Assembly (NCBI RefSeq): GCF_003149025.1
Contig: NZ_QGDV01000018.1
Span: 1-62,701, forward strand
Direction: 5' to 3'
Length of the DNA: 62,701 nucleotides
DNA from: Rathayibacter iranicus NCPPB 2253 = VKM Ac-1602
GTDB lineage: Bacteria > Actinomycetota > Actinomycetes > Actinomycetales > Microbacteriaceae
This document shows positions 44,560-61,721 of the stretch, piece by piece (position 1 is the stretch's first letter; every line of letters starts with the position of its first letter). A program made the position numbers and the translations under genes. The notes under the pieces were generated by a model that had not been told where the DNA came from, made no database searches, and worked only from the letters and a program-made list of their open reading frames with translations.

Positions 44560-44565
44560 CCGTCG

Positions 44566-44571
44566 AGGATA
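44566..44571 (-). promoter_or_regulatory. -10 element of nucS
   Basis: TATCCT on minus, six bases, GTG 44559; leaderless geometry. Confidence 0.6.
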
Positions 44572-44597
44572 GACGCCCTCCGTGCGGGCGTGGGGCT

Positions 44598-44682
44598 GTG
44601 CGATGTGCAGGGGATTCGACCTCCACCGCCTCGCCCGGGCGGCGGAGATGGATCTCTGGTGCGAAAGTCCTGCACATCGCAC
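44598..44682 (-). repeat. Long inverted repeat between MFS gene and nucS
   Basis: GTGCGATGTGCAGG (44598-44611) and its perfect complement (44669-44682) enclose 57 nt with further complementarity (CCGCC / GGCGG). It begins 16 nt past the MFS stop. It may be a terminator or a REP-like element; a copy elsewhere would support the second. Confidence 0.65.
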
Positions 44683-44697
44683 GCCGGTGCGGCGGAG

Positions 44698-45894: not shown

Positions 45895-45951
45895 GCCGGT
45901 TCTCCTGGTGCGGGCGGGACCCGGGCGGCGGCGGCGGATCGAGGAGCACGG

Positions 45952-45965
45952 TCGAATCGATTCGA
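45952..45965. promoter_or_regulatory. LacI-type operator candidate
   Basis: TCGAATCGATTCGA is a perfect 14-bp palindrome in the 138-nt divergent region between the MFS and LacI genes, as expected for a LacI-family dimer site with a central CG. Confidence 0.6.
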
Positions 45966-46032
45966 AGCGGGCCGGTCTAAGCTATCCGGAACCCCGGGAA
46001 CGGTCAACCAAAGAGCCCCGAGGAGGAGGAAC

Positions 46033-47082
46033 GTGCAACCCCGAAAGAGCCCTCGCCCGACGCTTGCCCGCGTCGCCAGCCGGGCCGGAGTCTCGCCCTC
46101 GACCGCCTCGCTCGTGTTCAGCGGCGCCGGACCGGTCTCGGAGTCGACCAAAGAGCGGGTGCTCCGCGCGGCGGCCGAGCTCGACTATGCGGGGCCCGAT
46201 CCGCGGGCGCGCTCCCTGCGCCGAGGACGCTCCGGGATTGTCGGAGTGGTGGTCGATGAGCGACTGCTGTACGCCTTCCGCGATCCGATCAAGCTCGCCT
46301 TGCTCGATGGCATCGCGGACGTTCTCGGCGGCATCGACGCGGGCATCCTGCTGCTCACCGAGACGGAGGACGGGGCCGGGCTGCTCGCGACGGCGCCGGT
46401 CGACGCGATGATCCTGATCGGGTGCAGCCCCTCCGCTGACGACTCCGTCGCCGTGCTGCGTCGCCGGGGAGTGCCGGTGGTGGTGGTCGAGGGAGTCTCG
46501 GCGCTCGGCGGCGCGGTGATCTCGCTCGACAATCGCGAGGCGAGCCGTACTCTGGCCGAGCATCTGCGCGAGCTGGGGCACGAGCGCGTCGCCGCAGTCT
46601 CGCTCCCGTTCGCGAAGGATCGCCGGCGCGGGCCGATCCCGGCCGACTGGCGCTCGAGCCCGAGCGTCACTCCGGTCGACCGCCTGCTCGGTGTGCAGGA
46701 CGTGTACCCCGACGTGCAGGTGGTGGCCGCTGCGGCCAGCACGGTCGATGAGGGAGTGATGGCGGGCAGGGCGCTGCTCGACGTCGCCCAACCGCCGACG
46801 GCCGTCGTGGCGCAGAGCGACCTGCTCGCAGCGGGCGTGATCCTCGCCGCGGAGGAGCGGGGACTCCGCGTGCCGGGGGACCTCTCGGTGGTCGGCTTCG
46901 ACGGGGTGCAGGTGCCGGGTCTCGCCGCCGAGTACGACCTGACGACGATGGCGCAGCCCGCGGTCGAGAAGGGGCGCGCGGCGGGTCGAGCCGCGGTGGC
47001 ACTCCTCGCGGAGGAGGAGGCCGTGGCCGTCTGCTTCGAAGCGGTGTTTCACCGTGGGAACACGAGCGCGCCGCCGCGCTGA
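46033..47082 (+). CDS. LacI family transcriptional regulator
   Basis: A 349-residue regulator. The N-terminal HTH (LARVASRAGVSPSTASLVFS) with the hinge helix ARSLRRGRSGIVGVVV is followed by a periplasmic-binding-like effector domain ending in VVGFDGVQVPG. It binds a sugar-like effector and probably controls the divergent MFS gene. AGGAGGA lies upstream of GTG 46033. Confidence 0.92.
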   Translation: MQPRKSPRPTLARVASRAGVSPSTASLVFSGAGPVSESTKERVLRAAAELDYAGPDPRARSLRRGRSGIVGVVVDERLLYAFRDPIKLALLDGIADVLGGIDAGILLLTETEDGAGLLATAPVDAMILIGCSPSADDSVAVLRRRGVPVVVVEGVSALGGAVISLDNREASRTLAEHLRELGHERVAAVSLPFAKDRRRGPIPADWRSSPSVTPVDRLLGVQDVYPDVQVVAAAASTVDEGVMAGRALLDVAQPPTAVVAQSDLLAAGVILAAEERGLRVPGDLSVVGFDGVQVPGLAAEYDLTTMAQPAVEKGRAAGRAAVALLAEEEAVAVCFEAVFHRGNTSAPPR

Positions 47083-47116
47083 GCCGGACGTGGCCCCAGA
47101 ATCTACAGCCCAGGGG

Positions 47117-48418
47117 TCAGCGGAGCCAGACGTCGCTGCGGACACGGAGCCCGAGCGTGAGCGCCCGGGCGCCGAGGTAGCCCACGGCGAAGGCGAGCCA
47201 CAGCGCCAGCAGCCGCGACGGGGTTGGCGCGGAAGGTGCGAGCAGTGCCAGCGGCGCGAAGACGGCGAGGTTCACCAGGCCGCTGAGAGCGAGGTAGCGG
47301 CCGTCACCGGCGCCGATCAGCACGCCGTCGAGCACGAAGACGAAGCCGCCGAGCGGAGCCGTCAGGCCGACCACCGCGATCGCCGAGGGCAGCAGGCGTA
47401 CCACCTCCGGATCGCTCGAGAAAACCGACGGCAGAAGGCCGCTCAGAGACACGACGATGGCGCCGAGTGCGACTCCGGTGCCGACTCCCCAGCTCACGCA
47501 GCGTTTCGTGACCGCGCGAGCCCGCGCGTGATCGCCCTCGCCAAGGAGTCGTCCGAGCAGCGCCTGCGCGGCAATCGCCACCGCGTCGAGTGCGAAGGCC
47601 ACCGTCGAGAACAGCGTCATCGCCACCTGGAACGCGCCGAGTTCCTCCGCCCCGAGGGAGGTGGCGACCGCCACGGCGAGCAGGATCGCCGCGCGCAGAC
47701 TCGCGGTGCGCAGCAGCATCCAGCCACCCGAGCCGGCGGAGGAAGCGAGGCCCGCGAGGTGGGGGCGCAGCGGCGCGCCGACCTTCCGCGCGAGGCGCAG
47801 CGCGACTCCCGCGTAGGCCGCGAGCATCGCCCACTGGGCGATCACTGTTCCGAGCGCCGACCCGGTTATCCCCAGGCCGGCCGGGTAGATGAGGAGGGCG
47901 TTCAGCGCGGCGTTCAGCGCGAATCCGCCTGCCGCGATCACGAGCGGAGTGCGGGTGTCCTGGAAGCCGCGGAGCAGACCGGTGAGTGCGAACACGCCGA
48001 GCATGGCGGGAATTCCGGCCATGCTTACCGCGAGGTAACGAATGCCGGCCTCGGCGACCGCCGGCTCCGCTCGGAAGAGTGCGATGACGGGCCCGGCGGT
48101 GAACGCGCCGACGAGGGCGATGACTGTTCCAAGCAGCAGGGCGAGCCAGCCGCCGTCGATCCCCGCGGCCACCGCGCGGCGCTCGTCGCCCTCGCCGAGT
48201 GCCCGCCCCACCCGCGGGGTCGTGCTGTAGGCGAGGAACACCATCAGCCCGACGATGGTCTGGAGCACGGCGCCGCCGAGCGCGAGCCCCGCCAGCGGCA
48301 CCGCGCCCAGATGCCCCACCAGAGCGGAGTCGGTCAGCAGGAACAGCGGCTCGGCGACGAGCGCTCCGAGCGCCGGCACCGCGAGCCGCAAAATACTGCG
48401 GTCAAGTTCGGAGATCAC
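47117..48418 (-). CDS. MATE family efflux transporter
   Basis: A 433-residue membrane protein with about 12 helices of the MATE/DinF group (LAVPALGALVAEPLFLLTDS, ALVGHLG). These proteins export drugs or metabolites using H+ or Na+. GTG 48418 is six bases after TAGCGT (leaderless). Confidence 0.92.
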   Translation of the reverse strand: MISELDRSILRLAVPALGALVAEPLFLLTDSALVGHLGAVPLAGLALGGAVLQTIVGLMVFLAYSTTPRVGRALGEGDERRAVAAGIDGGWLALLLGTVIALVGAFTAGPVIALFRAEPAVAEAGIRYLAVSMAGIPAMLGVFALTGLLRGFQDTRTPLVIAAGGFALNAALNALLIYPAGLGITGSALGTVIAQWAMLAAYAGVALRLARKVGAPLRPHLAGLASSAGSGGWMLLRTASLRAAILLAVAVATSLGAEELGAFQVAMTLFSTVAFALDAVAIAAQALLGRLLGEGDHARARAVTKRCVSWGVGTGVALGAIVVSLSGLLPSVFSSDPEVVRLLPSAIAVVGLTAPLGGFVFVLDGVLIGAGDGRYLALSGLVNLAVFAPLALLAPSAPTPSRLLALWLAFAVGYLGARALTLGLRVRSDVWLR

Positions 48419-48424
48419 CGCCCG

Positions 48425-48430
48425 ACGCTA
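48425..48430 (-). promoter_or_regulatory. -10 element of the MATE gene
   Basis: TAGCGT on minus, six bases, GTG 48418. Confidence 0.55.
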
Positions 48431-48495
48431 CAGCCCCCCACCCGTCCCCCACCCCCGTCCCTACCGGGGTTCCCTGGGCGGGGGAGGCGCGAGCC

Positions 48496-49746
48496 TCAGG
48501 TCGTCTTGACCGCGTTGTCCCCGTGGTTGCCGATGACCTCGTAGGCCGTGCTGCCGACGGCGCGGACCGGCTTCACGTTCATGTGGCCCGTCGCCCACTG
48601 ATTGCCGAGCACCGAGACGGCCCGGGCGTTGACCGCTTCGACGCAGTGGGTCCAGCCCGCGCCCTGGTCCTCGCACGCGAAGATGTTGCCGGTGATGCTG
48701 AAGCCGACCGTCCGCGCGACCGGCGAGACGCCCAGGATCTGGATCGCCGGGTAGGTGTTCGCCGCGGCCTTGCCTCCGTTGCTGATCGCGTTGCCGACGA
48801 TCTGGATCTGCGCGAGGTCCTCGCTCAGCCACGGTGGCATCGTGTAGACGAGGGACTGGCGACGTGCACCCTCCATGATGTTGTTCGCGATGGTGATGCG
48901 TCGATTGCCGCGGAGTTCGATATTGACCTGCGGCGATCCGTCGAGGTGATTGCCGAGGATCCGTAGGGGGCCGCCCTCGACCGAAATGTCGGCCTCGCTC
49001 GCGCCGATGTTGTTCTCGACGATCCAGGAGTCGATCATCCGGTAACTCGACCAGATGCCGGTGCCGGTGCACTGGTCGATGCTGCAGCGCTGGATGCGGT
49101 TGAGCAGGCCGAGGTCGCCGAATGTGCCGTCGTTCAGGCGCATGCCGAATCCGGTCCAGCCATAGAGTTGGAGGGAGTCGAGCACGGACTTGTCAAGGTG
49201 GGCCGAAACACAGGGCGCGCCGCGGCCGTCCGCATCAAGGATCAGATTGTCGAAGCGGCAGGAGGTGAAGGCACCCGAAACGACCGGTGCGTTCGTCAGC
49301 GAGCGGATGCGGGTCGAGAGTTCGCCCGCGCCACGGAAGGCGATGCTCGACAGACCCGTAGCCCGGCCGATCGAGCCGGCGATGCGGTAGATGCCGCGGG
49401 GAAAGTAGACGACGCCGCCGAACGACGCGATTGCGGCGTCAATTGTGGTGTTGATCGCGGGTAGGTCGTCGGTGCTGCCGTCGCCGGTCGCACCGAAATC
49501 CTGCACGTTGTAGACCAGCTCGCCCTTGGCGACCGGGCGCTCGCCGGAGTCGGTGCGGACTGCCTCCGGCAGCTGCGCGACGGGAACGAGGGAGTCGGCG
49601 TCGAGACCGGCGACGCCCAGGGGGGAGCCGATGGCGGATCGGAGGAGGGGGTCCCCGGGGGAAGGAGTGACGAGCGTCGCGCCGAAGGGGCTGGCGAAGA
49701 GACCGCGGCGGGTGAGCTCGGCGGTCAGTGCTGCGAAGAGGGGCAT
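48496..49746 (-). CDS. Right-handed beta-helix (pectate lyase superfamily) protein
   Basis: A 416-residue protein. Residues about 75-130 carry the pectate lyase 3 entry motif (FGATGDGSTDDLPAINTTID, GGVVYFPRGIYRI). The rest is parallel beta-helix coils (LRILGNHLDG, RRITIANNIMEG, FSITGNIFAC). It has no clear signal peptide in the first 40 residues. It may cut or modify a polysaccharide, as lyases near exopolysaccharide loci do; placement next to the synthesis genes favours this. GTG 49752 would add two residues. GACTGT lies six bases before ATG 49746. Confidence 0.8.
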   Translation of the reverse strand: MPLFAALTAELTRRGLFASPFGATLVTPSPGDPLLRSAIGSPLGVAGLDADSLVPVAQLPEAVRTDSGERPVAKGELVYNVQDFGATGDGSTDDLPAINTTIDAAIASFGGVVYFPRGIYRIAGSIGRATGLSSIAFRGAGELSTRIRSLTNAPVVSGAFTSCRFDNLILDADGRGAPCVSAHLDKSVLDSLQLYGWTGFGMRLNDGTFGDLGLLNRIQRCSIDQCTGTGIWSSYRMIDSWIVENNIGASEADISVEGGPLRILGNHLDGSPQVNIELRGNRRITIANNIMEGARRQSLVYTMPPWLSEDLAQIQIVGNAISNGGKAAANTYPAIQILGVSPVARTVGFSITGNIFACEDQGAGWTHCVEAVNARAVSVLGNQWATGHMNVKPVRAVGSTAYEVIGNHGDNAVKTT

Positions 49747-50067
49747 GCGCACACAGTCGACCGCGGGAGACGCGAGCGCATCCCTCCGGATGGGGGTCTT
49801 GCCGCGGTAGCGATCGTCGGCAGGTCGGGTCTCAGGACGCGCGCTGCCTGATGGCCCCGTGGCGGCGGCCCCTCGGGGTGCTGGCGGAGCCGCAGAGCGT
49901 GGCTCCCGCTGCGGGGTCGAGTGGTCGTAGATGGGGGTGTGACTGGCGGAGGGAGCCCGGTGCGCGAGTGTTCGTGGCGCGGGGGATCTCGAGACGCGGG
50001 CTTTAGCCCGGGGTGCCACTCGGGCGGAGGGAACGCGCCACGGGACCCTGGCGCCTACCATGCAGAC
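49747..50067. other. Divergent control region of the exopolysaccharide locus
   Basis: No gene is visible in 321 nt. It carries the -10 of the GGDEF-EAL gene (50056-50061) and of the beta-helix gene, and a small hairpin CGGGCT-TT-AGCCCG near 49997. Confidence 0.4.
50056..50061 (+). promoter_or_regulatory. -10 element of the GGDEF-EAL gene
   Basis: TACCAT, six bases, ATG 50068. Confidence 0.55.
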
Positions 50068-52395
50068 ATGCAGCGTTCGCAGGGACTGGGGCTCCTCGAC
50101 GTCGCGATCGCGGGCCTGCTGGGGCTGTTCGCTCTTGCGGTGATCGTGCGAGCGACTGCGCTGTTCATCGTCGATCCGCCGGTGAGCTGGTCGTTCGTCA
50201 TCGCGTTCGGCACGGCCGTGGCGCTCACCGCCGCTCTGCGCATCCCACTCGGCCGCCGCTCCGGGATGCCGACCGCCGGCCTGAGCGTCACCCTCCTCGT
50301 GATCGCGGCGCCCGGCGCCGACCCACTGCGCCTGCTGGGCATCCTGACCGCGGCGACCCTCGTCACGCAGCTGGTGCAGACCCGCAACGTCGCGGTCGCC
50401 GCCTATGTGACCGGCCTCGGCTCTCTCGCCTCGCTGGCCCACATGGAGGTGCTCGCCGCGCTGGAGAAGCTGGTGCCCGCTCCGCTGGCCTTGCTCCCCG
50501 CGACCGCCGTGTTCCTTCTGATCGTGCTGAGCGTCGATCTGCTCCGTCAGCGCGGGCGCTGGAGCATGGACTGGACGCCCGGGTTCGACGCGCTGGTGCC
50601 GCGTCGGGTGGCGCTCCTCTTCGGGACTCTGTGGCTGCTCGCGGTCGTGATCCGCTTCCTCGACCGCACCGTCGTTCCGGCGATGGCCGTGGATCCGACG
50701 CTGGAGCAGAGCCCGATCGTGGTTCTCGTGGTCGCGGCTCTCGTGTTCAGCGTCGCCAAGCGGCTGGAGGTGCACCGCGTCCGGCGTCGCCTGGCCGGGG
50801 TGCTCGACGCCGCGCTCGAGCTGCCCTGGGGAGGTGTCGCCCAGGCCGAGAGCACGCTTCTCACTCACGCCCGCACGAGCATCGAGGCCGACGACATCGT
50901 CATGCGCGATGAGCCAGCATCGGGGACTGAGATCGGCTCCGAGATGCTGCTGCCCGACGGTCGCATCCGCCATGTCGTCGCCTCCAAGCGGGTCAGCGCC
51001 GTGCCGTTCGGCGTCGAGGAGGAGCGGGTCCTCGACGCCCTCGCGCACATGGGCGCCGATACGCTGGGCGCCCGCGACGACGTGGAGTCGCTGCGCCGCT
51101 TCGTTGACCGCGATGCGCTGACCGGTTTGCCCAACCAGCGGGCGTTCCAGGCGGCGCTCGCTGAGGCCAACCGCGACCGGCGTCCGCTCGAGGGGATCGC
51201 GGTGCTGTTTCTCGATCTCGACGACTTCAAGAATCTCAACGACGGACGTGGACACCATGTCGGCGACAAGATGCTCAGCCTGGTCGGGCAGCGCCTCGGC
51301 GAGGCGGCGGCCGAGGGCGGCGGCTTCGCGGCGCGGATCGGCGGCGACGAGTTCGTGTTCCTCCTGCGCGGACTGCGCTCGGCGACGGATGCGCGCACGC
51401 GCGCTCAGGCGCTGATCGAGGCGGTGAGCACCCCGGGCGTCGTCGAGGGCGACACTCTGGCGCCGGTGCTGAGCGGTGGAGTGGCGTTCTCGGCGCACGA
51501 AGAGCCGGACCCGTCGCTGATCGTGATCGAGGCGGATCGCAGTATGCTCGCGCTCAAGCGCAGCCGCGGCAGGAACGGGCGGGAGCGTTCGAGTGCGCTG
51601 GATGTCATGTCGGTCGTCGCCGATCCGGTGCGGGAGGCTGCGGTCCGGGCCGTGCGCGAGCACACCCTGGATGTCGCATACCAGCCAATTGTCAATCTGC
51701 GCACGGGATGCATTTGGGCGTTCGAGGCGCTCGTGCGCCTCGAGGATCCCGTCGTCGGGCAGGTGGACCCTCCGCTCCTGATCGAGCACGTCCGAGACCT
51801 CGGCCTGCTTGATGAGCTGACCGTGCAGGTGGTGGAGAAGGCGATGGGCGCGGCCGAGAGCTTCCGCGCCACCGCGCCGGGCGTGACGTGCATGAGCGTC
51901 AACGTGGACCTCGAGCAGCTTGGTGTCGATCGGCTCGGCGCTTATCTGGCTGAGCTTCCGGGCCGATTCCCGCAGCTGCGTCTGTGCGTGGAGCTGAACG
52001 AGCGCTCACTCGACGCCGCGGACGACGCTCTGCGGATGCAGGCGCGGCGGCTGCGTGAGGCGGGCCTGCTGATCGCGCTCGACGACTACGGGGCCTGGGG
52101 CACCTCCGCGTCGGCCGTCGCCACGTTTCCGCTCGACATCCTCAAACTCGACCGCAGCCTGATCGAGGATCTCGGAAACGTGCACTCCCGCGAGCTCGTG
52201 CGCGCTCTGCACTCGTTCGCGGCTGCGGTCGGCGTGCGTGCGATTGTCGAGGGCGCCGAGGACGAGGAAACGATCACGCTGCTCAAGGAGCTGGGAGTGA
52301 CGGATGTGCAGGGGTATTTCTTCGGCCGCCCCGTCACCCGGAAGGGGGCGGAGTACCGCCTGCTGGCAACGGGATCCATGGCGGTGATTCCCTAG
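50068..52395 (+). CDS. Membrane GGDEF-EAL protein (cyclic di-GMP metabolism)
   Basis: A 775-residue protein. Six or seven membrane helices fill residues 5-230. The diguanylate cyclase domain has LDLDDFKNLNDGRGHHVGDK and an intact GGDEF at 425-429. The EAL domain starts at 553 (FEALVRLE), but later motifs deviate from consensus: DDYGAWGTSAS for DDFGTGYSS, and IVEGAEDEE for the usual AEGVE. So a cyclase activity is likely and the phosphodiesterase activity uncertain. It leads the plus-strand exopolysaccharide genes and probably sets local cyclic di-GMP. The stop is 1 nt before the next open frame. Confidence 0.93.
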   Translation: MQRSQGLGLLDVAIAGLLGLFALAVIVRATALFIVDPPVSWSFVIAFGTAVALTAALRIPLGRRSGMPTAGLSVTLLVIAAPGADPLRLLGILTAATLVTQLVQTRNVAVAAYVTGLGSLASLAHMEVLAALEKLVPAPLALLPATAVFLLIVLSVDLLRQRGRWSMDWTPGFDALVPRRVALLFGTLWLLAVVIRFLDRTVVPAMAVDPTLEQSPIVVLVVAALVFSVAKRLEVHRVRRRLAGVLDAALELPWGGVAQAESTLLTHARTSIEADDIVMRDEPASGTEIGSEMLLPDGRIRHVVASKRVSAVPFGVEEERVLDALAHMGADTLGARDDVESLRRFVDRDALTGLPNQRAFQAALAEANRDRRPLEGIAVLFLDLDDFKNLNDGRGHHVGDKMLSLVGQRLGEAAAEGGGFAARIGGDEFVFLLRGLRSATDARTRAQALIEAVSTPGVVEGDTLAPVLSGGVAFSAHEEPDPSLIVIEADRSMLALKRSRGRNGRERSSALDVMSVVADPVREAAVRAVREHTLDVAYQPIVNLRTGCIWAFEALVRLEDPVVGQVDPPLLIEHVRDLGLLDELTVQVVEKAMGAAESFRATAPGVTCMSVNVDLEQLGVDRLGAYLAELPGRFPQLRLCVELNERSLDAADDALRMQARRLREAGLLIALDDYGAWGTSASAVATFPLDILKLDRSLIEDLGNVHSRELVRALHSFAAAVGVRAIVEGAEDEETITLLKELGVTDVQGYFFGRPVTRKGAEYRLLATGSMAVIP

Positions 52396-52516
52396 AATGA
52401 CGCGAGAACGGGCGTTCCCCGACACTCCGACAGGAACCAGTGCGACCGTTCGGTTCCTCGACACTCGAGCCCCGTCACAGCGGATGCTCACCTCCGCTGA
52501 TCGGATCGACAGCTCC

Positions 52517-54589
52517 ATGCCCTCCTCCCTCCTGCACCGACGCGTTCTGCACCGGCGCCTCCTGGCCGCCGCCCTGGCGCCGGCGCTGTGCCTCGGACTT
52601 GCGCTCGGCGCCACTACTCCGGCCGCGGCCGCCGACATCGTCGACCCCGTGACAGGAGCGGTCGTGCAGGGAGCCGCGACGGGCGCCACGATCACTGTGG
52701 CGGCCGGAGCGCCGTTGCAGTACCTGGCTGTTCCGATCGCCGAGGGCGTCACTCCGACCCGCGTCCTCGCCACGCTGGCGACGGATGCTCCGGTGCAGGG
52801 CGCGCTCGTCGTGGTCGTCGCCGGCCGCACCGTGCAGACCGTCGAGGCCTCAGCTCGGACCCTCGACCTGCCCGTCCAACAGGGCGACGTGGTCGACGGC
52901 GTGCTGGCAATCGGCTTCCAGCTCACCGGCGCCTCCGCCTCGACCGGCGCCCTCTGCGAGGTGCCCGGACGCGCGCTGACCGTCTCCGACGTCGCGGTGC
53001 TCAGCGACGGCACTCCGACCGCCCCGACCACCGTGGGCGGCTTTTTCCCCGACGCGGTCTCGGCCGTCTCGATCCTGGTGCCCGACGGCGCCGGCGACGC
53101 TCTGCGCGCCGCAGGGCTCTCGGCGGCTGCCTCGCTCGCCTCCCGCTACCCGGTCGGCACGAGCATCACGGTCTCGGAGGAGGGCGCCACCGGCGCACGC
53201 CCGCAGCTCGACGCCGCGACCGGCCGCGTCGTCCGCTTCTCCGCGGGCGAGGGCGCCGTGGTCTCGGCGATCGCACAGAACGCCGGAGTCCCCGAACTCA
53301 CGCTGACCGGCGCGGAGGGCGATCTTGCCGCGGCCGGAGCGGCACTCGGCAGCGAGTTCGCCGGCCTCGCGTCGAGCGCGAGCACGACCGGGCTGGCGCA
53401 GAAGGTGATCCCGTCGAGTTCGCTCGAGCACTCCCTGGCCGATTTCGGAGCCGAGCGGATCGCGCTCGGCAGCACAGGCGCCTCCGCCAGCTACACCACA
53501 ATCACGCAATCGGCGTTCGGCGGTCCGGTCTCGACGGTGCAGGTCGACCTCGTCGGCACGCACTCCGCGATCCCCGCGGGTATTACCGCGACCGCGAACG
53601 TGTACTGGAACGACTTCCTGATCGGCTCGAGCGTCCTCGGCACGGACACGGCGATCGACATGCAGCTCACGGTGCCCACTGGCCAGCTCGCCTCCTCGAA
53701 CGCCCTGTCGGTGCGGCTCTCGGCAGTGCGCGAGGGCGACGGGCAGTGCATCGGCTCGGCCGACACCGTGCCGATCGAGTTTTTCGTGGACGGAGCGGGC
53801 TCCACCGTGACGGGCGTCCGCGGCGAGTCGCCGGCTCCGGGCTTTGGCCGGTTTCCGCAGGCGTTCGGCGGCGAACTCGCTGTGGCGTTCGGCGGATCGG
53901 CGAGCGGCCCCGACGCGCTACGCAGCGCGGGCGACCTGGTGACGGCGCTGCAACGCGTCGACTCCCGACCGCTCGCCGTCTCGGTCGTCGGACTCGACGA
54001 CTTCCTCGACTCCGACAGCTCGGGCCTGGTCGTCAGCGCGGGCGCAGACGAAGCGGAGGCGCTGCGCTCGCCGCTGCGCCTCGCCTCCTTCACGGCCATC
54101 GATTCTTCCCGTGTGGAGTACGGAGTCGGCACCGAGGCGCCCTACGCTGCGCTCGAGGCGTTCACGGCCAACGGACGCGACATCGTCCTCCTCGGGGGGT
54201 GGAGCCCGGACGGCGCGTCCTCCTCCGAGCTACAGACGTCCATCGCCGCCTGGGCCGCCACCGAGGGCTGGGCCTCGCTCGCCGGTGACCTGGCCGTCTC
54301 GGGCAGCGCCGGTGCCGATCCGGTGCAGATCGACAGCAACGAGATCACTCCGCAGGCCGAGGTGAAGGACGACTACTCCGCCTACGCGATCTGGTTCGTC
54401 GTGGCCGTCGTCGTGATCGGCCTGCTCATCCTGCTCGGCTGGCTGCTGCGCCGCCGACGCTCGCGTCGGGTCGCGTCCTACGTCGATGCGCAGGAACGGG
54501 CCGGCTCGGAGACGGGACCCGGCGACCCGGCCGGCCCCGTCACTCCGCTCGACCCCGCCACCCCTGACGACCGACGCCCGGCCCACTGA
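52517..54589 (+). CDS. BcsB-like membrane-anchored exopolysaccharide subunit
   Basis: A 690-residue protein. It starts with a signal peptide (RRLLAAALAPALCLGLALGA, with AAAA cleavage region), has a long external part with carbohydrate-binding-like beta folds (PTTVGGFFPDAVSAVSILVP), and ends in one membrane helix (YAIWFVVAVVVIGLLILLGW) and a short basic tail. Layout and order next to a QxxRW glycosyltransferase match BcsB, the partner of cellulose synthase BcsA. The first in-frame ATG at 52397 would add 40 residues without a signal; ATG 52517 begins the signal. Confidence 0.8.
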   Translation: MPSSLLHRRVLHRRLLAAALAPALCLGLALGATTPAAAADIVDPVTGAVVQGAATGATITVAAGAPLQYLAVPIAEGVTPTRVLATLATDAPVQGALVVVVAGRTVQTVEASARTLDLPVQQGDVVDGVLAIGFQLTGASASTGALCEVPGRALTVSDVAVLSDGTPTAPTTVGGFFPDAVSAVSILVPDGAGDALRAAGLSAAASLASRYPVGTSITVSEEGATGARPQLDAATGRVVRFSAGEGAVVSAIAQNAGVPELTLTGAEGDLAAAGAALGSEFAGLASSASTTGLAQKVIPSSSLEHSLADFGAERIALGSTGASASYTTITQSAFGGPVSTVQVDLVGTHSAIPAGITATANVYWNDFLIGSSVLGTDTAIDMQLTVPTGQLASSNALSVRLSAVREGDGQCIGSADTVPIEFFVDGAGSTVTGVRGESPAPGFGRFPQAFGGELAVAFGGSASGPDALRSAGDLVTALQRVDSRPLAVSVVGLDDFLDSDSSGLVVSAGADEAEALRSPLRLASFTAIDSSRVEYGVGTEAPYAALEAFTANGRDIVLLGGWSPDGASSSELQTSIAAWAATEGWASLAGDLAVSGSAGADPVQIDSNEITPQAEVKDDYSAYAIWFVVAVVVIGLLILLGWLLRRRRSRRVASYVDAQERAGSETGPGDPAGPVTPLDPATPDDRRPAH

Positions 54590-54594
54590 ACACC

Positions 54595-56274
54595 GTGACC
54601 GCGACGCTCACCGCCCGCCGGCGCATCCCCACGTCCGCACGAGCGCCGTGGTGGCGGGAGGCATGGGAGCGTCTCGGCCGGCCCGTCACCGGGCGTCAGG
54701 TCCCCGGCACAGTCGTGGTGCTGGTCGTCGCGCTGCTGGTCGGCTTCGTCGCGTGCCTGGTCACCACGTCCTCCGGCATCAACCTCGCCTACGCCGACAC
54801 GCAGAGCCACCTCGCCATTTCGCGGCGCATCATCGACTCGAAGGCTCCCGGATTCACGCAGCTCGGCACCGTCTGGCTGCCCATCCCGAGCCTCGTGCTC
54901 ATCCCGTTCGTGCAGTCGCTCTGGCTCTGGCACACCGGCTGGGCAGCCGGGCTGCTCGGGATGATCTGCCTGGCCGGCACCGCGTGCGGCGTCTATCGAA
55001 TCTCGGCACGGGTCGGGCACCTGCGCGCCGGACGGATCACCGCCGTCCTGCTCGTGCTGGCGAATCCGGGCGTCCTCTACTCCTTCTCTACCGCGATGAC
55101 GGAGCCGGTGCTCATCGTGACGATGGTCGCCTGCTTCTCGGGTCTGGCGCACTGGGTCACCAGCCGCCGCAGCCTCAGCGCCGGCGAGATGATGGTGTTC
55201 TCTGGCCTTCCCGCAGCGGCCGCGACCCTCTCGCGCTACGAGGGCTGGGTGCTCGTCTTCGGCGGGACAGTCGTCGTGCTGATCGTCGCGTGGCGGCGCA
55301 AGCGCTCCTTCTTCTACGCGGTGAAAATGGCTTGTGCGTTCGGGATTCTGCCGCTGGTCGCGATCCTGTGGTGGCTCGTCTACAACTTCGCCGTGTACTC
55401 CAATCCGCTCGAATTCATGAACGGGCAATACTCGGCGGCGAACCTCCAAAAGTCGGTCGCGGATGCCGGACTGCTGGCCTACCAGGGCAATGCGGGCCTC
55501 ACGCTCTGGACCTACAACTGGGCCGTGCTCGAAACCTCGGGCCTGGTCACGGTCGCGCTCGGGCTCGCGGGGGCACTCGTGCTCGCCTGGCGGCGCGGGA
55601 TCTCGGACGACGCTCTCGTGATCTGGCTGATGATCGTCTCGTATGCCTTCTCGCTGCTGAGCCTCTACCTCGGCCAGACGCACATGAACAACGATCACAC
55701 CTTCCCCACCAATTGGTGGAACAACCGCTACGCCCTCTCGGTGCTGCCGTTTCTCGCCGTGCTCGCGGCCGTCCTGGTCGACGCGCTGCGGCGCCTTCCG
55801 CGGGTCGGAGTTGGCGCACTCGGCCTGGTGCTCGTTCTGCTCGGCGCGCAGACGGCCTGGTGGGCGCAGGACCTCGACCGCAACGCCGTGATCGCTGAGG
55901 CCAGCGGCTACGTGCAGTTGAAGGAGGCATCGGGAGCCACCGCGGCGGCGCGCTTCCTCGGTGAGCACTACGACGGCGGGGGCGTGCTGATGGACGAGAG
56001 CGCCGCCGGCAACGCGCTCCTCCCCGAGATCGGCATCCCGCTGGCCGAGTTCTACAACCGCTCGACCGGCGAACTCTTCGACGAGGCCCTCGCTCATCCA
56101 GCGACCCACGCGAAATGGGTTTTCGTGACCACCGCCGACGCGCCCGAGCTGAGCGAGACCGGCGTCGCCGACCTGGTCTACGACTCCCTCACCCGCGACT
56201 CCACCTTCGACACCCGCTACCGGCCGGTGTTCTCGCGGGGCAACTACGTCGTCTACGAACGGCTGGGAGGCTGA
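54595..56274 (+). CDS. GT-C family membrane glycosyltransferase
   Basis: A 559-residue polytopic protein with about 11 helices. The first external loop has an acidic motif (YADTQSHLAISRR) like the DxD/ExD of GT39/ArnT-type enzymes that use polyprenyl-phosphate sugars. A soluble C-terminal part follows. GTG 54595 starts 5 nt after the BcsB-like stop. It may add side sugars or modify the polymer. Confidence 0.82.
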   Translation: MTATLTARRRIPTSARAPWWREAWERLGRPVTGRQVPGTVVVLVVALLVGFVACLVTTSSGINLAYADTQSHLAISRRIIDSKAPGFTQLGTVWLPIPSLVLIPFVQSLWLWHTGWAAGLLGMICLAGTACGVYRISARVGHLRAGRITAVLLVLANPGVLYSFSTAMTEPVLIVTMVACFSGLAHWVTSRRSLSAGEMMVFSGLPAAAATLSRYEGWVLVFGGTVVVLIVAWRRKRSFFYAVKMACAFGILPLVAILWWLVYNFAVYSNPLEFMNGQYSAANLQKSVADAGLLAYQGNAGLTLWTYNWAVLETSGLVTVALGLAGALVLAWRRGISDDALVIWLMIVSYAFSLLSLYLGQTHMNNDHTFPTNWWNNRYALSVLPFLAVLAAVLVDALRRLPRVGVGALGLVLVLLGAQTAWWAQDLDRNAVIAEASGYVQLKEASGATAAARFLGEHYDGGGVLMDESAAGNALLPEIGIPLAEFYNRSTGELFDEALAHPATHAKWVFVTTADAPELSETGVADLVYDSLTRDSTFDTRYRPVFSRGNYVVYERLGG

Positions 56275-56276
56275 GC

Positions 56277-58214
56277 ATGGGAGCGACACGCACAGCCCGA
56301 GTGGGCGAGATCCTCCTCGAGCGCGGGCTGATCTCACCGGAGCAGCTAGACGAGGCGCTGCGCCGCCAGACTCGCGAGGGTGGGCTTTTGGGGCGGCACC
56401 TCATCCTCGACGCGGCCATCACTCGCCGCGAGATGTACGACGCCCTCGCCGAGCAGTGGGATGCCCCACTCGTCGACCTGATTGCCGAACCCCCCGAGGC
56501 CGAGCTGCTTGCCCGCGTGGGCGCCGAAACGCTGGTCGACGCCGGCTGGGTGCCCTGGCGGGTGCTGAGCGACGGGACCGGAGTGATCGCCACTTCCGTA
56601 CCGCCGACCCCGGCGGTGCTCGCTGAGGCGCGCGCGATGCTCGGCGTCTCGCGGGTGAGCGTGCGCACCACCACCGACTGGGACATCTTCCGCGCCGTAG
56701 AGAGCGCCTGCCGGTCGGCGCTGCTGTTCGGTGCGGCCGACGCGCTGGCGGTCGAGAGCGGCGACGAGTCGGCGAAGGCCGGCTTGCGGCGCTGGCAGGT
56801 CGTCACTCCGCTCGTCGTCGTCGCGTTCGTGGTCGTGGGCGCCGTGCTCGCGCCGAGCCTCACCTTCGTGGTCGTGCTCGCGGCCGCGAACCTGCTGTTC
56901 CTGATGAACATCGCGTTCAAGGCGCTGGCCGGGCTGCGCGCGCCGCTGAATCGGAGTTCGGTGACGGCGTGGGAGGAGGAGGTGGCGATCGAGCGCGCCC
57001 GCCGCGGCCTCCCCGTGCACCCTCCGCGCATGACCGACGACGAGCTGCCGATCTACACGATCCTCGTCCCGGCCTACAAGGAGGCCAACATCATCAGCAA
57101 GCTGCTGGTGAACCTCGGCGCCCTCGACTACCCCAAGGCCAAACTCGAGGTCCTCGTCCTGCTGGAGGCCGACGACGACGAGACCATCGCGGCCGTGCGG
57201 CGGATGAGCCCGCCCGAGTACGTGCGGATGGTCATCGTGCCGCCCGGCGGACCGCAGACCAAGCCGCGCGCCTGCAACTACGGGCTCAGCTTCGCCCGCG
57301 GCGAGTTCGTCGTGATCTACGACGCCGAGGACCGGCCAGACCCCGACCAGCTACGACTCTGCGTGCGGCTGTTCCGCGAGGACGCCTTCGAGCGCGAGTT
57401 CGTCGATCCCCGGCAGAAGCAGCTCGTCTGCCTCCAGGGCGCGCTGAGCTATTTCAACGCCGACTACAACGTGCTCACCCGGATGTTCGCGGTCGAATAC
57501 GCGCACTGGTTCGGCGCGATGCTGCCGGGCCTCGACCAGTCGCATCTCCCGATCCCGCTGGGCGGCACCTCGAACCACTTCGACACCCGCGTGCTGCGCG
57601 GACTCGGTGCCTGGGATCCCTACAACGTTACCGAAGACGCCGACCTCGGCCTCCGCGTCGCCGCGCACGGCTACCGGGTGGGCGTGGTCGACTCCAACAC
57701 GTGGGAGGAGGCGTGCGCGGAAGTCCCGGCGTGGATCCGCCAACGCACCCGGTGGATCAAGGGATACATGATGACCGCTGGGGTCAACACGCGACATCCG
57801 ATCCGCTGGTTCCGGGTTAATGGAATCCTCGGCTCGCTGAGCTTGGTGGCGCTGATTATGGGAACTCCGGTGGCATTCCTCCTCTATCCGCTGGTGCTGG
57901 GATTCACGGTGGTCACCTATATCGGCGTGCAGTTCCTCGGGCTCGACATTCCGGAGTGGCTGATCATCGCGGGCACCACGAACATGCTGTTCTCGAATGC
58001 GCTGATGATCGTGGTATCCGGGATCGCAGCGTGGAAGCGCTACAACTGGCGCATCGCCGCCTTCGCGCTGCTGAATCCCGTCTATTGGGTGTTGCACTCG
58101 ATTTCGGCCTGGCGGGCCGCCTGGCAGATCGTCTTCAGCCCGCACAAGTGGGAGAAAACACCGCACGGTCTTACGGAGGAGTACGAGGACTCGACAATCG
58201 GGGCTCCTGCGTGA
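56277..58214 (+). CDS. Processive-type GT2 glycosyltransferase with N-terminal MshEN cyclic di-GMP-binding domain
   Basis: A 645-residue protein. Residues 8-31 fit the MshEN motif position for position (R8, G10, L13, L14, G17, L18, I19, L24, L28, Q31). A second, weaker copy covers 37-60 (G39, L42, I43, I48, L57, Q60). Two helices (about 175-215), a GT2 domain with VPAYKEAN (264-271), DAED (349-352), TEDAD (452-456) and Q489-R-T-R-W493, and five C-terminal helices follow. Such QxxRW enzymes polymerise and export polysaccharide. MshEN is known to bind cyclic di-GMP, so direct activation is inferred. Confidence 0.88.
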   Translation: MGATRTARVGEILLERGLISPEQLDEALRRQTREGGLLGRHLILDAAITRREMYDALAEQWDAPLVDLIAEPPEAELLARVGAETLVDAGWVPWRVLSDGTGVIATSVPPTPAVLAEARAMLGVSRVSVRTTTDWDIFRAVESACRSALLFGAADALAVESGDESAKAGLRRWQVVTPLVVVAFVVVGAVLAPSLTFVVVLAAANLLFLMNIAFKALAGLRAPLNRSSVTAWEEEVAIERARRGLPVHPPRMTDDELPIYTILVPAYKEANIISKLLVNLGALDYPKAKLEVLVLLEADDDETIAAVRRMSPPEYVRMVIVPPGGPQTKPRACNYGLSFARGEFVVIYDAEDRPDPDQLRLCVRLFREDAFEREFVDPRQKQLVCLQGALSYFNADYNVLTRMFAVEYAHWFGAMLPGLDQSHLPIPLGGTSNHFDTRVLRGLGAWDPYNVTEDADLGLRVAAHGYRVGVVDSNTWEEACAEVPAWIRQRTRWIKGYMMTAGVNTRHPIRWFRVNGILGSLSLVALIMGTPVAFLLYPLVLGFTVVTYIGVQFLGLDIPEWLIIAGTTNMLFSNALMIVVSGIAAWKRYNWRIAAFALLNPVYWVLHSISAWRAAWQIVFSPHKWEKTPHGLTEEYEDSTIGAPA

Positions 58215-58641
58215 TGGCTGCCGTTCGTAACCGAGGTTGAGAGCGCCTGCGCGCGGCTTTTCGGCGGCTGACGGCGGTCCTGACCTCGGTTGCGAACGCT
58301 CGGATCATCGGGCGAGCCTGGCTGGAGCGCAGGCGCTGATCGTTCTCTGCCTGGTCGATGACGAACTCCGAGAAGCCGGGCACAGCGAACGACAGGTGAC
58401 CGTGCTTGTTCGCGTCGATGAGCCCCCTGTCGAGGAGGCGCTCGCGACTGACGGAGACGGTCGTGGCGCCAAGCATCTCGGCGAGTGTTGAGCGCTTCAC
58501 ATGGGTGCCGCCGAGGACCCGTGGAACGAAGCGGCCCTCAGAGGAAATTCAGAGCGCCGCCTGGCCGAACTGCTGCAACTTGTCTGCCCGGCCGGGCAGT
58601 TTCGGCGGGACCGACCCCGGGGTGTAGGGATTGAGTAACAT
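58171..58641 (-). pseudogene. AAA ATPase remnant with internal deletion
   Basis: From ATG 58641 the frame reads MLLNPYTPGSVPPKLPGRAD, a typical start of an AAA ATPase family, then meets TGA at residue 31. The same frame goes on with SEGRFVPRVLGGTHVKRSTL and LGATTVSVSRERLLDRGLID to VPGFSEFV, the C-terminal winged-helix of the same family, ending at 58171. The whole ATPase core with Walker motifs is absent. So about 250 codons have been deleted and a stop is present. It overlaps the GT2 3' end by 44 nt. Confidence 0.75.
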
Positions 58642-58902
58642 CAGAGCCTCGCTATCACGCTGTTATACATCGGGCCGATGTGCGACAATGCGACAAACGA
58701 TCTCGAGGTGAGCAGTTGACATTGCGCGGCCGAGCGTTTTGCAGGGGCCGGAGACGTCGCTGCTGTTCCCGGCGTACCAGAGATCGAGGTCTAAGACCTT
58801 TTCGGCGATCTGAGGCCTGTGTAGGTCGAGTGAGGGCCGCGGTGGCCCCCGCTTCCATCCTTGGCGCGGGAAGTGTGGGTGCAGGTCAGACGTCGCTTTG
58901 GG
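58642..58902. other. Intergenic stretch at the start of the low-GC island
   Basis: About 260 nt without a supported gene. A TTGACA hexamer lies near 58717 on plus, without a convincing partner -10. Base composition is lower in GC than the exopolysaccharide genes. Confidence 0.35.
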
Positions 58903-59550
58903 CTAAAACGACTGGAGATCATTCTGACCTCGATCCGACATTTTCATGATTCGCGCGAGTTCGTGGATACGATCAAGAAGAAGAGCGGGGACTTTCGCGT
59001 CGGAGTCGTAGAGGGCATCGACGACCGTCTCCAGGCAGAGCACGTACTCCGTGTGCTTGTTCAAGTCTCGGCACCAGGAGAACCATTCGGGATCGAAACG
59101 CTCCTCCAGTCGATCGAGCAACTGACCGAGGGCAAGTTCCATTCGGGTGGAGTAGAGGATGCCGAGGCTCTTGCGCAGGATGCGCACCGTTTCCGGACGA
59201 ATCGGCCCGCGGTATTTTCGGCGCCAGAAGCCCCTCGCGCGGATGGGATCAAGCGGCCCGACTCCCTCCTCCCATGTCCCGGACGAGGCATGGGCACCGG
59301 CACACCGCGGGACTCGATCCATGACTGTGTCGAGGTTCACGATGTACGCGACCGGGTAGTTTCGGGTCAGCACGTCCGGCCAGTTCTCGCTGTCCAGCCC
59401 GTGGAGGAGTTCATCCAGGCAGAGGGCGAAATCTTCGCGGCTCAGCGGATGTCGCAGGTACACCTCAGTCTGGGGATCGAGTCGCCGGCGCACCCGGTGG
59501 AGCACAGTGCGGAGTTCGGTGCGCACGCGGCGGAGTCGCTGGTCGTACAT
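58903..59550 (-). CDS. Unrecognised protein with a duplicated domain; probable immunity protein
   Basis: A 215-residue soluble protein. It contains two related halves marked by FALCLDEL (41-48) and YVLCLETV (169-176), each in a predicted helical context. The same [FY]-x-L-C-L-[ED] motif occurs as YRLCLEQI in the gene at 60426-61283. I do not recognise the family by name. Position in a row of immunity-like genes suggests it protects against a toxin. AGGAG lies 6 nt before ATG 59550. Confidence 0.65.
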   Translation of the reverse strand: MYDQRLRRVRTELRTVLHRVRRRLDPQTEVYLRHPLSREDFALCLDELLHGLDSENWPDVLTRNYPVAYIVNLDTVMDRVPRCAGAHASSGTWEEGVGPLDPIRARGFWRRKYRGPIRPETVRILRKSLGILYSTRMELALGQLLDRLEERFDPEWFSWCRDLNKHTEYVLCLETVVDALYDSDAKVPALLLDRIHELARIMKMSDRGQNDLQSF

Positions 59551-59645
59551 GGGTTCTCCTGTTCACGATGATGCGTGATGTGACCGGAACTACTGCGCCA
59601 CCGGTCCGCGACGGTACAACCCTGGTGGCCAAGTGTGCAGACAAT

Positions 59646-59852
59646 TCACGACGCAGAGGCCGGATACACCAACTGCAAGCGGCCATCGGAGACATCAATT
59701 TCGATAGGAAGCATATCCAAAGCTACCAGTCCCCCTCCGAATATATCTGGAGCACGGTCGAGGAAAATAAGAGAATGCTCTGTTGTGCGGTAGACAAGCC
59801 GTCCTCCCGTTGGCTCTACGTCGTCGCCAGGTCCTATCACGATAGCCTTCAC
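59646..59852 (-). CDS. Small hypothetical protein
   Basis: A 68-residue protein (MKAIVIGPGDDVEPTGGRL, then VYRTTEHSLIFLDRAP). Alternating hydrophobic residues suggest a small beta-rich fold. Its GTG start is directly preceded by GAGGAG, too close for ideal spacing. It sits in the immunity row. Function unknown. Confidence 0.5.
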   Translation of the reverse strand: MKAIVIGPGDDVEPTGGRLVYRTTEHSLIFLDRAPDIFGGGLVALDMLPIEIDVSDGRLQLVYPASAS

Positions 59853-59892
59853 CTCCTCAACCAGTGTGGTAAATTAGTTTTATGTTTTGTTT

Positions 59893-60183
59893 CTAGGCGA
59901 GCTGAAGGGCAATCTCGTAGAGCCGATTCCGCAGCAAGTCGAGTTCTTCATTGGGGCCGCGCGGGTAAGTGCCGTTGGTGTAGATGAGGACGTCGTTGAA
60001 ACTTCCCATCCCTCTATACATGTGAAGAATATTCCTTGACGTGTCGCTGACGTCTGCGGGGCTGTCTGAGGCCTGGACTTCCTCGAGTAGGGCTTGAAAC
60101 GCTTTGGCCCAGGACGCGTCTCTTGCGTCGACAAAAAGCTTCTCCAGTGCTGAAAGCGTTTCGAGCATCGTTTTAACACTCAT
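59893..60183 (-). CDS. DUF6966-like protein
   Basis: A 96-residue helical protein with MYRGMGSFNDVLIY and the ending LDLLRNRLYEIA, the signature I associate with DUF6966. Such small proteins are common near polymorphic toxins and may be immunity proteins. The frame can be extended to GTG 60297, which lies 13 nt after the expected start site of a good TATACT promoter; the family match begins near 60183. Confidence 0.7.
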   Translation of the reverse strand: MSVKTMLETLSALEKLFVDARDASWAKAFQALLEEVQASDSPADVSDTSRNILHMYRGMGSFNDVLIYTNGTYPRGPNEELDLLRNRLYEIALQLA

Positions 60184-60425
60184 GTGAGTGACCAAGCGCC
60201 GAGAACTTCCACGCCATCGGAAAGTGATAGCTTGCCAACGGGGGTGGAGCTTCAGCGAAACACTGCGCAAAAGATCCCGTTTCATTTCCCGTTCCACTAT
60301 TGCCTGCTTTTGATACAGTATAAAAACCTATTGGAAAGCTAGTAATTATACCTCGCGCTGTGAGGCTCATTCAGGACGTTCTGAATGGTCGGTGAGGATG
60401 CTTGTCACTAGGGCTTTTGCTGCGC
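60184..60425. other. AT-rich gap with minus-strand promoter
   Basis: About 240 nt, distinctly AT-rich. TATACT read on minus at 60317-60322 is the best -10 match in the window and faces the DUF6966-like gene. The 5' part near 60297 may be coding if the longer start is used. Confidence 0.45.
60317..60322 (-). promoter_or_regulatory. -10 element for the DUF6966-like gene
   Basis: TATACT on minus, in an AT-rich setting (TTTTTATACTGTATC). Near-consensus for sigma70-type recognition. Confidence 0.5.
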
Positions 60426-61283
60426 TCAGCTGGGTTGTGAAGAGGCGTCTGTGTCTCCTTCTGGCGAGGCATAGAGGATCGGTTCGAGGCCGTGTCGACC
60501 CCATCTTTCCTGGACGGTCGCGAGGGCCTCGAACTCGGTGAAGAGCGTGACGATCAAGGGGAGAGCTGGGCGGTCCGAGGAGTGACCTTCCGCAATTGGC
60601 TCGCTCCAGATTTTTCCGGTGCGCTGGAGGGAGCCGGCGAGAAGCTCGGTCTCCGCCTCGGGTCTGTCGCGCAGGAGATGTTCTGACTCCATTACCGCGA
60701 GGAAGATGCCAAACCCGACGTCCTGTTTTCCGAGGTCGCTCAGACATGCATCGAAGGCGTCTGCGTTGCCGTCGGAGTCGTACGGCAGCTGCAAGGCGGC
60801 GGAGATCTGATCGAAGACACGTGCGATGTCCGGCATCGCTCGGCCGCGCAGGAGCCGACTGGTGAAGCCGCGGCGCTCGTATTCGGCGACGAGACTTTCG
60901 GCCGCACCAGGTGTGTCATGGACAAAGCGGAAGGAAAAGCCAGGCTTATCAAGGGTGTCCCATGACTGGGCGCGAGGTGCTTGAATTGTTCCGAAAGGCT
61001 TGAACGGAGTCGCAGGGTCCGCGATCAGATTGCTCCAGATCGCCGCAGGGAGTTCTAGCTTCTGGGTCGTATCGACGATGACGTCAAGCACCCAAGCGTC
61101 AACAGTTCGGTAAAGGTCGTTCAGCCCGAGAGCGATCTGCTCGAGGCAGAGTCTGTACTGATCGTTGTCGAGAGAGACCCGGGCGGATCGAGCGCGCGGT
61201 CCTGGGATCACGTGCTGTGTAGCGGCGAGGACGAGCTCAAGGTCCCGGGCGATCTGTTGCTGTTGTTCTGCATTCAGGCGCAT
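60426..61283 (-). CDS. Immunity-type fusion: [FY]xLCL domain plus barstar-like domain
   Basis: A 285-residue protein. Residues 1-80 form a helical domain with YRLCLEQI (43-50), shared with the gene at 58903-59550. Residues about 118-275 are barstar-like: ALQLPYDSDGNADAFDACLS, with LLAGSLQRTGKIWSEPI and PLIVTLFTEFEA. Barstar-type domains block RNase toxins. The domain combination suggests protection against two toxin activities or a joined immunity pair. AGAGAGG lies 5 nt before the ATG. Confidence 0.75.
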   Translation of the reverse strand: MRLNAEQQQQIARDLELVLAATQHVIPGPRARSARVSLDNDQYRLCLEQIALGLNDLYRTVDAWVLDVIVDTTQKLELPAAIWSNLIADPATPFKPFGTIQAPRAQSWDTLDKPGFSFRFVHDTPGAAESLVAEYERRGFTSRLLRGRAMPDIARVFDQISAALQLPYDSDGNADAFDACLSDLGKQDVGFGIFLAVMESEHLLRDRPEAETELLAGSLQRTGKIWSEPIAEGHSSDRPALPLIVTLFTEFEALATVQERWGRHGLEPILYASPEGDTDASSQPS

Positions 61284-61324
61284 AATTCCTCTCTGGTGAG
61301 TTGACGGGTTTGCGTGGTGGCTAG

Positions 61325-61721
61325 CTACTGTCGCATCGACGTCGCGCTTTTAATCGGCGGTCGTGTCGTAGTGAGTGCCGATCGTGATTGGGGTAGATCA
61401 GCCGGAGGCCGACGATCCTTCTCGCTGGTGGCGCCCATCGCACCGCTTTCGGAGAACCGATACGCCGGCGTAATCTGAGGTAGCCCTTTCTGCGCGACTC
61501 TCAGATGGATTTTAGACGGGTCCATCTCGACGACAAATTTCACTTTGGAAGGAGCGGTCGGAGATCCTTCGCAAATAGTCCTGTGGGCCGTCCGGCGCGG
61601 GACGGTCCGCGTCCACCCATTCACGGCAAACGAGTATTCGAGTTGGTTTACGTCGATGGCGATCTTGCCTTGACGGTTATGTGCATTCGCATGTGCGGAC
61701 TGGTCTCCTTGAACAAGGCGC
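61325..61721 (-). pseudogene. Probable toxin C-terminal fragment without a start codon
   Basis: A frame stays open from within the upstream barstar gene tail to the stop at 61325. The stretch GKIAIDVNQLEYSFAVNGW and KVKFVVEMDPSKIHLRV reads like coding sequence, but no ATG, GTG or TTG occurs before the GTG at 61624. It lies between two immunity genes, the place of displaced toxin C-terminal domains. No toxin family is recognised. Confidence 0.4.

Follow-up and report, generated by a model that had tools for sequence, protein, structure and literature searches.

The 62,701-nucleotide stretch of the Rathayibacter iranicus NCPPB 2253 = VKM Ac-1602 genome analysed here (contig NZ_QGDV01000018.1; hereafter the window) harbours a block of five genes at 48496-58214, which probably constitutes a private switch through which cyclic di-GMP (c-di-GMP) would control one surface polysaccharide. 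As far as sequence comparison reaches, it is demonstrated which genes these are, that their linkage is conserved and that no GGDEF, EAL, MshEN or PilZ domain was detected elsewhere in the genome. A more specific proposal, which we advance tentatively and with somewhat less than even confidence, is that in this lineage a single bifunctional enzyme and a single MshEN-bearing synthase, encoded side by side, make up the whole c-di-GMP system, gating a polymer with D-arabinofuranose branches; the branches would derive from a decaprenyl-phospho-arabinose (DPA) pathway of mycobacterial type that was recruited to the locus, with no mycobacterial wall involved.

Many bacterial c-di-GMP networks comprise numerous enzymes and receptors, and the pairing of an enzyme with its target is hard to settle. 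One enzyme and one receptor in a single operon would, if the proposal is true, allow signal, enzyme, receptor and output to be measured without cross-talk, and c-di-GMP control of polysaccharides would then reach the Microbacteriaceae. Likewise, the DPA link would, if true, represent a use of decaprenyl-phospho-arabinose outside the mycobacterial wall type, with a testable sugar composition. Finally, a relative in which no cyclase was found and the receptor motif has decayed (genome G027) provides a ready evolutionary comparison.

Organisation of the locus

All five genes that an earlier, sequence-only reading had named in this block were recovered in their places by Pfam matches, fold and relatives, and the operon order is confirmed. 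The features are:

48496..49746, minus strand: beta-helix protein (pectate-lyase-like), divergent; PF12708, E 3.2e-13
50068..52395, plus strand: membrane GGDEF-EAL enzyme, 775 residues; PF00990, E 4.9e-31, and PF00563, E 3.3e-46
52517..54589, plus strand: BcsB-type subunit, 690 residues; assigned from the PF03170 matches of relatives and from fold, with no family match of its own
54595..56274, plus strand: membrane glycosyltransferase of GT-C type, 559 residues; weak PMT_2 match below cut-off, hydropathy and family alignment
56277..58214, plus strand: MshEN-GT2 synthase, 645 residues; PF05157, E 7.4e-11, and GT2, E 3e-25
56298..56369, plus strand: MshEN motif I, residues 8-31; 11/11 tested positions kept (motif after the accessible part of PMC5013675)
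56385..56456, plus strand: MshEN motif II, residues 37-60; 8/11 kept (R to L, G47 to A, next hydrophobic residue to A)

The GT-C gene begins 5 bases, and the GT2 gene 2 bases, after the respective upstream gene. The start of the BcsB-like gene is corrected here to the ATG at 52517, 121 bases past the GGDEF-EAL gene; the ATG at 52397 was dropped because it is not conserved in three congeners. These congeners keep the gene order of the locus, so that a chance grouping is unlikely. Rfam searches of 44000-62701 at gathering thresholds gave zero matches.

The c-di-GMP enzyme

The window genome (3.38 Mb in 49 contigs, scored 100% complete) contains one GGDEF and one EAL domain, both in the same protein, one MshEN domain and no PilZ domain, and all three domains present lie in this operon. 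The earlier description of the locus as self-contained is thus borne out for these four domain types, and the genome comparisons given below support its suggestion that one polymer synthase may be served by its own cyclase.

In the GGDEF-EAL enzyme the GGDEF motif is intact, and the EALVR, N, E, DD, K, E and Q residues are kept in the window protein and its three orthologues. We take these to be the catalytic residues of the two domains, and by this measure the enzyme is predicted to be bifunctional; an RxxD I-site was not found in it. A similar economy is seen in G070, which has one GGDEF and one EAL domain, both at the locus, and in G065 (83% complete), where one of each is encoded on a contig other than that of the locus. 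Neither GGDEF nor EAL was found in G045 and G221, the two congeners that do not carry the locus.

The MshEN-GT2 synthase

The synthase consists of an MshEN module (residues ~8-146), transmembrane segments (~170-224), a GT2 domain (~254-500) and C-terminal transmembrane helices. Its Pfam MshEN score is 42.3 bits against a cut-off of 23.1, and the MshE-related c-di-GMP motif NF053729 scores 59 bits against 38. The NCBIfam equivalog model for NfrB, by contrast, gives 26.5 bits against a cut-off of 1170, and the MshEN module is N-terminal, not C-terminal. A TED motif at 452-454 and QxxRW at 489-493 can be read directly in the sequence, and D349, E351, D352, T452-E453-D454, Q489, R492 and W493 are invariant among 21 sequences; the features expected of a processive GT2 synthase (DxD-like motif, TED, QxxRW and membrane helices) are all present. 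The predicted structure (pLDDT 86.5) resembles BcsA, the first match being a structure with c-di-GMP, and hyaluronan synthases (E ~1e-12 to 1e-11, query TM 0.37-0.48).

The MshEN receptor for c-di-GMP is made up of two 24-residue motifs with a 5-residue spacer, according to the part of PMC5013675 available. In the window protein motif I is kept at 11/11 tested positions, the spacer is 5 residues and motif II is kept at 8/11. Binding of c-di-GMP by the N-terminal module is predicted.

Distribution of the locus

Among 299 genomes of the family, GT2 matches at E 1e-30 or better were found in 39, and 13 of these (the carriers) have the window type (>=48% identity), with 15 window-type synthase loci between them. 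BcsB-like and GT-C genes occur in 13/13 carriers, and neither matched in any of the 26 genomes with another GT2 type. In carriers they adjoin the GT2 gene, with convergent orientation in G027; the one exception is G065, in which contigs break. The sequence-only reading was to be abandoned if the genes lay apart in relatives, and this is not what the carriers show. Its five-gene conserved order holds in the three congeners, and 12 of 15 loci have a GGDEF gene at a distance of no more than 10 kb, but the beta-helix gene is near the synthase in only 8 of 13 carriers and the gene orders vary.

GGDEF genes were found in 154/299 genomes, including 12/13 carriers against 142/286 others (Fisher p 0.003), and the 12 of 15 loci with such a gene within 10 kb of GT2 compare with 0.26 expected under a simple density model; both statistics ignore shared ancestry, a point that counts against the proposed circuit. 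The three loci without a nearby GGDEF gene are the second locus of G146, that of G027 (no GGDEF found) and that of G065 (contig break). Among the genomes with the other GT2 type, 5 of the 7 drafts searched have GGDEF, none of them on the GT2 contig. The enzymes that neighbour the synthase are by no means uniform: within the genus they are orthologues (68-73% identity), in a second genus separate EAL and GGDEF genes occur in 3/4 genomes and a GGDEF-EAL plus a GGDEF gene in G248, and elsewhere dissimilar GGDEF-EAL proteins are found in differing gene orders.

Motif I retains 10-11 of 11 positions in 12/13 carriers and is decayed in the sole carrier without GGDEF. This genome, G027, keeps the BcsB, GT-C and GT2 genes, has no match for GGDEF or EAL, and scores 4/11 in motif I; such decay looks as loss of the signal would be expected to leave it. 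In the other GT2 loci that were read (17 of the 26 genomes) motif I scores 0-7/11, the N-terminus being unaligned or spurious in five of those 17 rows (L019, L023, L025, L026 and L029). These loci (L015-L031) represent other Microbacteriaceae GT2 proteins, with ~32-47% identity over the 26 genomes, whose MshEN is degenerate or missing where read.

A wider contig scan returned at least 589 places. Among the best 80, which were examined, GT2 proteins of many phyla bear N-terminal MshEN-like modules of varying integrity. BcsB was matched in 7 of these 80, namely two of Arthrobacter type, one of Acidobacteria (a contig-edge piece), three of Anaerolineae type and L034, a Microbacteriaceae metagenome-assembled genome that represents the G027 locus again; a further one of the 80, L043, has a BcsB homologue by clustering.

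BcsB-type subunit, GT-C transferase and beta-helix protein

The BcsB-like protein has a signal-peptide-like start, an ectodomain and a single C-terminal transmembrane helix. Searched alone it gave zero Pfam or NCBIfam matches, PF03170 included, and PDB sequence searches with the protein or with its alignment recovered no BcsB; the fold search alone did. Within an alignment of 17 homologues (window included; two rows are one protein), PF03170 was found in 8, with a best E of 4.9e-11. For its AlphaFold model (pLDDT 72.6) the top 22 PDB matches are all BcsB chains (best E 3.1e-26), at query TM 0.34-0.55, root-mean-square deviation 7.7-12.8 and identity 12-14%. Relatives and modelled fold together establish the protein as a distant BcsB.

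The GT-C protein shows many membrane segments in a hydropathy scan, and its PMT_2 match (E 0.0066) is below cut-off. A family of putative glycosyltransferases is matched at E <=0.01 by twelve of 16 aligned members, window included; the window protein reaches 18.4 bits where the cut-off is 200.

The beta-helix protein begins with LTRRGLF, and relatives begin with LTRRSLF or LTRRALL. We take this twin-arginine-like start to be a pattern for twin-arginine translocation, which suggests export by that route, and the protein is a possible exopolysaccharide-acting enzyme. Its gene lies near the synthase in the window, three congeners and four genomes of the second genus and has no match in the remaining 5/13 carriers; it is the least general part of the locus.

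DPA genes and the donor sugar

In mycobacteria the decaprenyl-phospho-arabinose pathway comprises Rv3806c, DprE1 and DprE2, and DprE1 and DprE2 together imply arabinose, not ribose. Six relatives (G171, G263, G007, G153, G248 and G203) carry genes resembling decaprenyl-phosphate phosphoribosyltransferase (UbiA), DprE1 and DprE2 adjoining GT2, a setting that differs from the arabinogalactan genes of mycobacteria in that the neighbour is a c-di-GMP synthase. In 5 of these 6 genomes GtrA also stands beside GT2, and the nearest gene is DprE2, 18 to 1252 bases off. From this adjacency it follows that the GT-C protein may add D-arabinofuranose. In G007, G153 and G203 the block from the beta-helix to the BcsB gene holds only DPA, c-di-GMP and synthase genes and a PAP2 phosphatase (the latter not in G153); the G248 block has an extra open reading frame of DUF559 type, nuclease-like, between DprE2 and GT2. 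The GT-C protein is the sole candidate DPA user seen in the block. DprE1 was found in 11/299 genomes, i.e. in 8/13 carriers (all of two genera) and 3/286 others (p 1.4e-10, uncorrected for ancestry).

The window genome has its own DPA set. Its UbiA scores 338 bits against an NCBI cut-off of 207 and aligns to a solved phosphoribosyltransferase at E 3.3e-64, and the DprE1-like protein aligns to solved mycobacterial DprE1 at E 3.7e-71. This protein (L180:11090-12379) has Ala where, by the numbering that we presume for the site, mycobacterial DprE1 has cysteine 387, a further difference from the mycobacterial set.

Several observations speak against an arabinose-branched polymer. DprE1 (346 against 500 bits) and DprE2 (138 against 250) of the window genome both fall under their NCBI equivalog cut-offs, and DprE2 fits a general short-chain dehydrogenase/reductase model better, though also under its cut-off (205 against 267). 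The UbiA gene is less specific than DprE1, occurring in 21/299 genomes (8/13 carriers and 13/286 non-carriers). DprE1 is absent from 5/13 carriers; arabinose is thus no general feature of this operon, and the donor of GT-C may vary. Moreover, the DPA set of the window genome lies on another contig (C7:152665-156129), ~8 kb from the contig end. Beside DprE2 it is followed by an Rhs protein (G000:C7:156297-161786; L180:13298-18787), while synteny of the window with its relatives ends at the GT2 stop codon, after which barstar- and MafI-type genes follow. An Rhs/immunity (polymorphic-toxin) island between GT2 and DprE2 would account for both contig ends. In the congener G116 the DPA genes are ~25 kb from GT2, and a second copy of the GT2 gene end (G116:C20:175640-175897; window residues 548-633, 95% identity) lies downstream of the intact gene; together these suggest that an insertion took place and left this part of the gene duplicated.

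The strongest alternative, to which we likewise give a little less than even credence, leaves the synthase with its c-di-GMP control as proposed but assigns the DPA genes to some other glycan of the envelope and gives GT-C another sugar carried on polyprenyl phosphate. It would explain the five carriers with GT-C and without DprE1, and also the three genomes that have DprE1 without the locus; moreover, the GT-C alignment, compared with PDB sequences, Pfam and NCBIfam, revealed neither an arabinosyltransferase family or structure nor a donor specificity. On the other hand, the blocks of G007, G153 and G203 offer no other candidate transferase (G248 adds only the DUF559-type frame), and the congeners that are free of the locus are also without DprE1. 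In two genomes without the locus, G066 and G163 (L182 and L183), DprE1/DprE2-like genes stand beside a longer protein with a weak UbiA match that looks by eye like a HAD-UbiA fusion; DPA may thus have another use in the family.

Proposed mechanism and its alternatives

According to the private-switch model the membrane GGDEF-EAL protein would respond to a cue and set the c-di-GMP level, and c-di-GMP would bind the N-terminal MshEN module of the synthase. The bound synthase would turn on polymerisation from nucleotide-sugar and export across the membrane, the direction of control being presumed to be activation. The BcsB-type subunit would hold and guide the chain outside, where GT-C would add sugar to it on the outer face of the membrane. 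This sugar would come from a polyprenyl-phosphate donor and would in this lineage most likely be D-arabinofuranose, supplied by the UbiA-DprE1-DprE2 set. Trimming or release of the polymer may fall to the beta-helix protein, which is probably exported.

Some findings weaken this model on the c-di-GMP side. Motif II of the window MshEN has lost its R, G47 and one hydrophobic residue (8/11), Ala in place of G47 being found also in two Arthrobacter-type relatives; the same two relatives are without the R and Q of motif I (9/11), and a relative from the Acidobacteria, in which all three genes occur and GGDEF genes lie ~7 kb off, scores 7/11. In the other three locus-bearing congeners there are three EAL domains and, away from the locus, another GGDEF gene; a single enzyme is therefore not the rule in the genus. 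Finally, the absence of further domains from the window genome holds for GGDEF, EAL, MshEN and PilZ, no search having been made for HD-GYP, BldD-type or other receptors.

One could imagine that MshEN is a structural relic or too weak a binder, that control is transcriptional, and that the GGDEF-EAL protein acts mainly as a phosphodiesterase or sensor. The imperfect motif II and the degenerate or missing MshEN of other Microbacteriaceae GT2 proteins would fit such a scenario, as would the observation that most single MshEN changes in NfrB had no or moderate effect, although phage killing was abolished by G491L and in part by G519S (accessible parts of PMC8669472 and PMC8669469). We nevertheless consider it unlikely, because motif I is nearly complete in 12/13 carriers and decayed in the GGDEF-free one, and because no other receptor domain of the searched types is present in the genome to read the signal. 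That the locus is an ordinary actinobacterial cellulose-type (bcs) operon is very improbable in spite of its BcsB-type subunit and BcsA-like GT2 fold, since PilZ is absent from the synthase protein and the genome, since in NCBIfam the synthase matches best a glycosyltransferase model that includes MshEN and the MshE-related c-di-GMP domain, with the cellulose synthase model far below cut-off, and since in 13/13 carriers the unit includes a GT-C gene; it was rejected as the principal explanation for want of PilZ.

Comparison with known systems

The BcsA-BcsB cellulose synthase resembles the window system in pairing a polymerase with a BcsB-type subunit under expected c-di-GMP control, and differs in its PilZ receptor within BcsA and in having no GT-C partner. 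Pss of Listeria and the gts operon of Lactobacillus acidophilus are Gram-positive GT2 exopolysaccharide systems that differ in having a degenerate EAL protein as the proposed receptor. Lactobacillus has a single cyclase gene, and MshEN, GT-C or DPA genes are not mentioned for it in the accessible portion of the source (PMC6123363).

NfrB/NfrA of Escherichia coli combines GT2 with MshEN, measured c-di-GMP binding and a dedicated cyclase, DgcJ, but its MshEN is C-terminal, it employs an outer-membrane pore, and the cyclase is encoded outside the nfrBA-ybcH operon in a cell with 12 cyclases (PMC8669469 and PMC8669472, parts available). An NfrB-related Achromobacter cluster includes a BcsB homologue (PMC8669472, same proviso). 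In Sfz1/Sfz2 of stalk-forming Zetaproteobacteria, a gene set likened to xagBCD, a BcsB-like protein with signal peptide and C-terminal transmembrane helix stands beside a GT2 with N-terminal IPR007831 (EpsE-like, of type II secretion systems), TED and QxxRW. There the N-terminal domain was likened to EpsE and given a possible part in translocation, and c-di-GMP binding was proposed through RxxD/RxxxR motifs and not through MshEN; the excerpt at hand places GGDEF and HD-GYP near other stalk-former genes and does not mention GT-C or DPA genes (PMC8250860). The arabinose polysaccharide of Sinorhizobium (ApsS) was also tried as a model and set aside, as no literature tie to MshEN was found.

The NfrB and Sfz precedents mean that the MshEN-GT2 architecture is already known. 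A claim of novelty for it is not supported, the architecture being widespread and already paired with BcsB in print (PMC8250860, in the part available). What is new here are the single detected c-di-GMP parts in one genome, the repeated pairing of different enzymes with the same synthase, the DPA link and the G027 comparison. Our literature search found no precedent for the one-enzyme circuit or the DPA link and no apt description of the set in Microbacteriaceae; most subscription papers lay outside this search, and such absence is weak evidence.

Additional observations

In three Anaerolineae-type loci and one of Gemmatimonadetes the GT2 gene is followed by a shared protein of ~470-630 residues (from open reading frame calls; cluster c10), for which the one member scanned, L044:11811-13307, gave no Pfam match. 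In the window itself, the region past GT2 (58214-62701) has a lower G+C content and contains barstar-like and MafI-type immunity genes.

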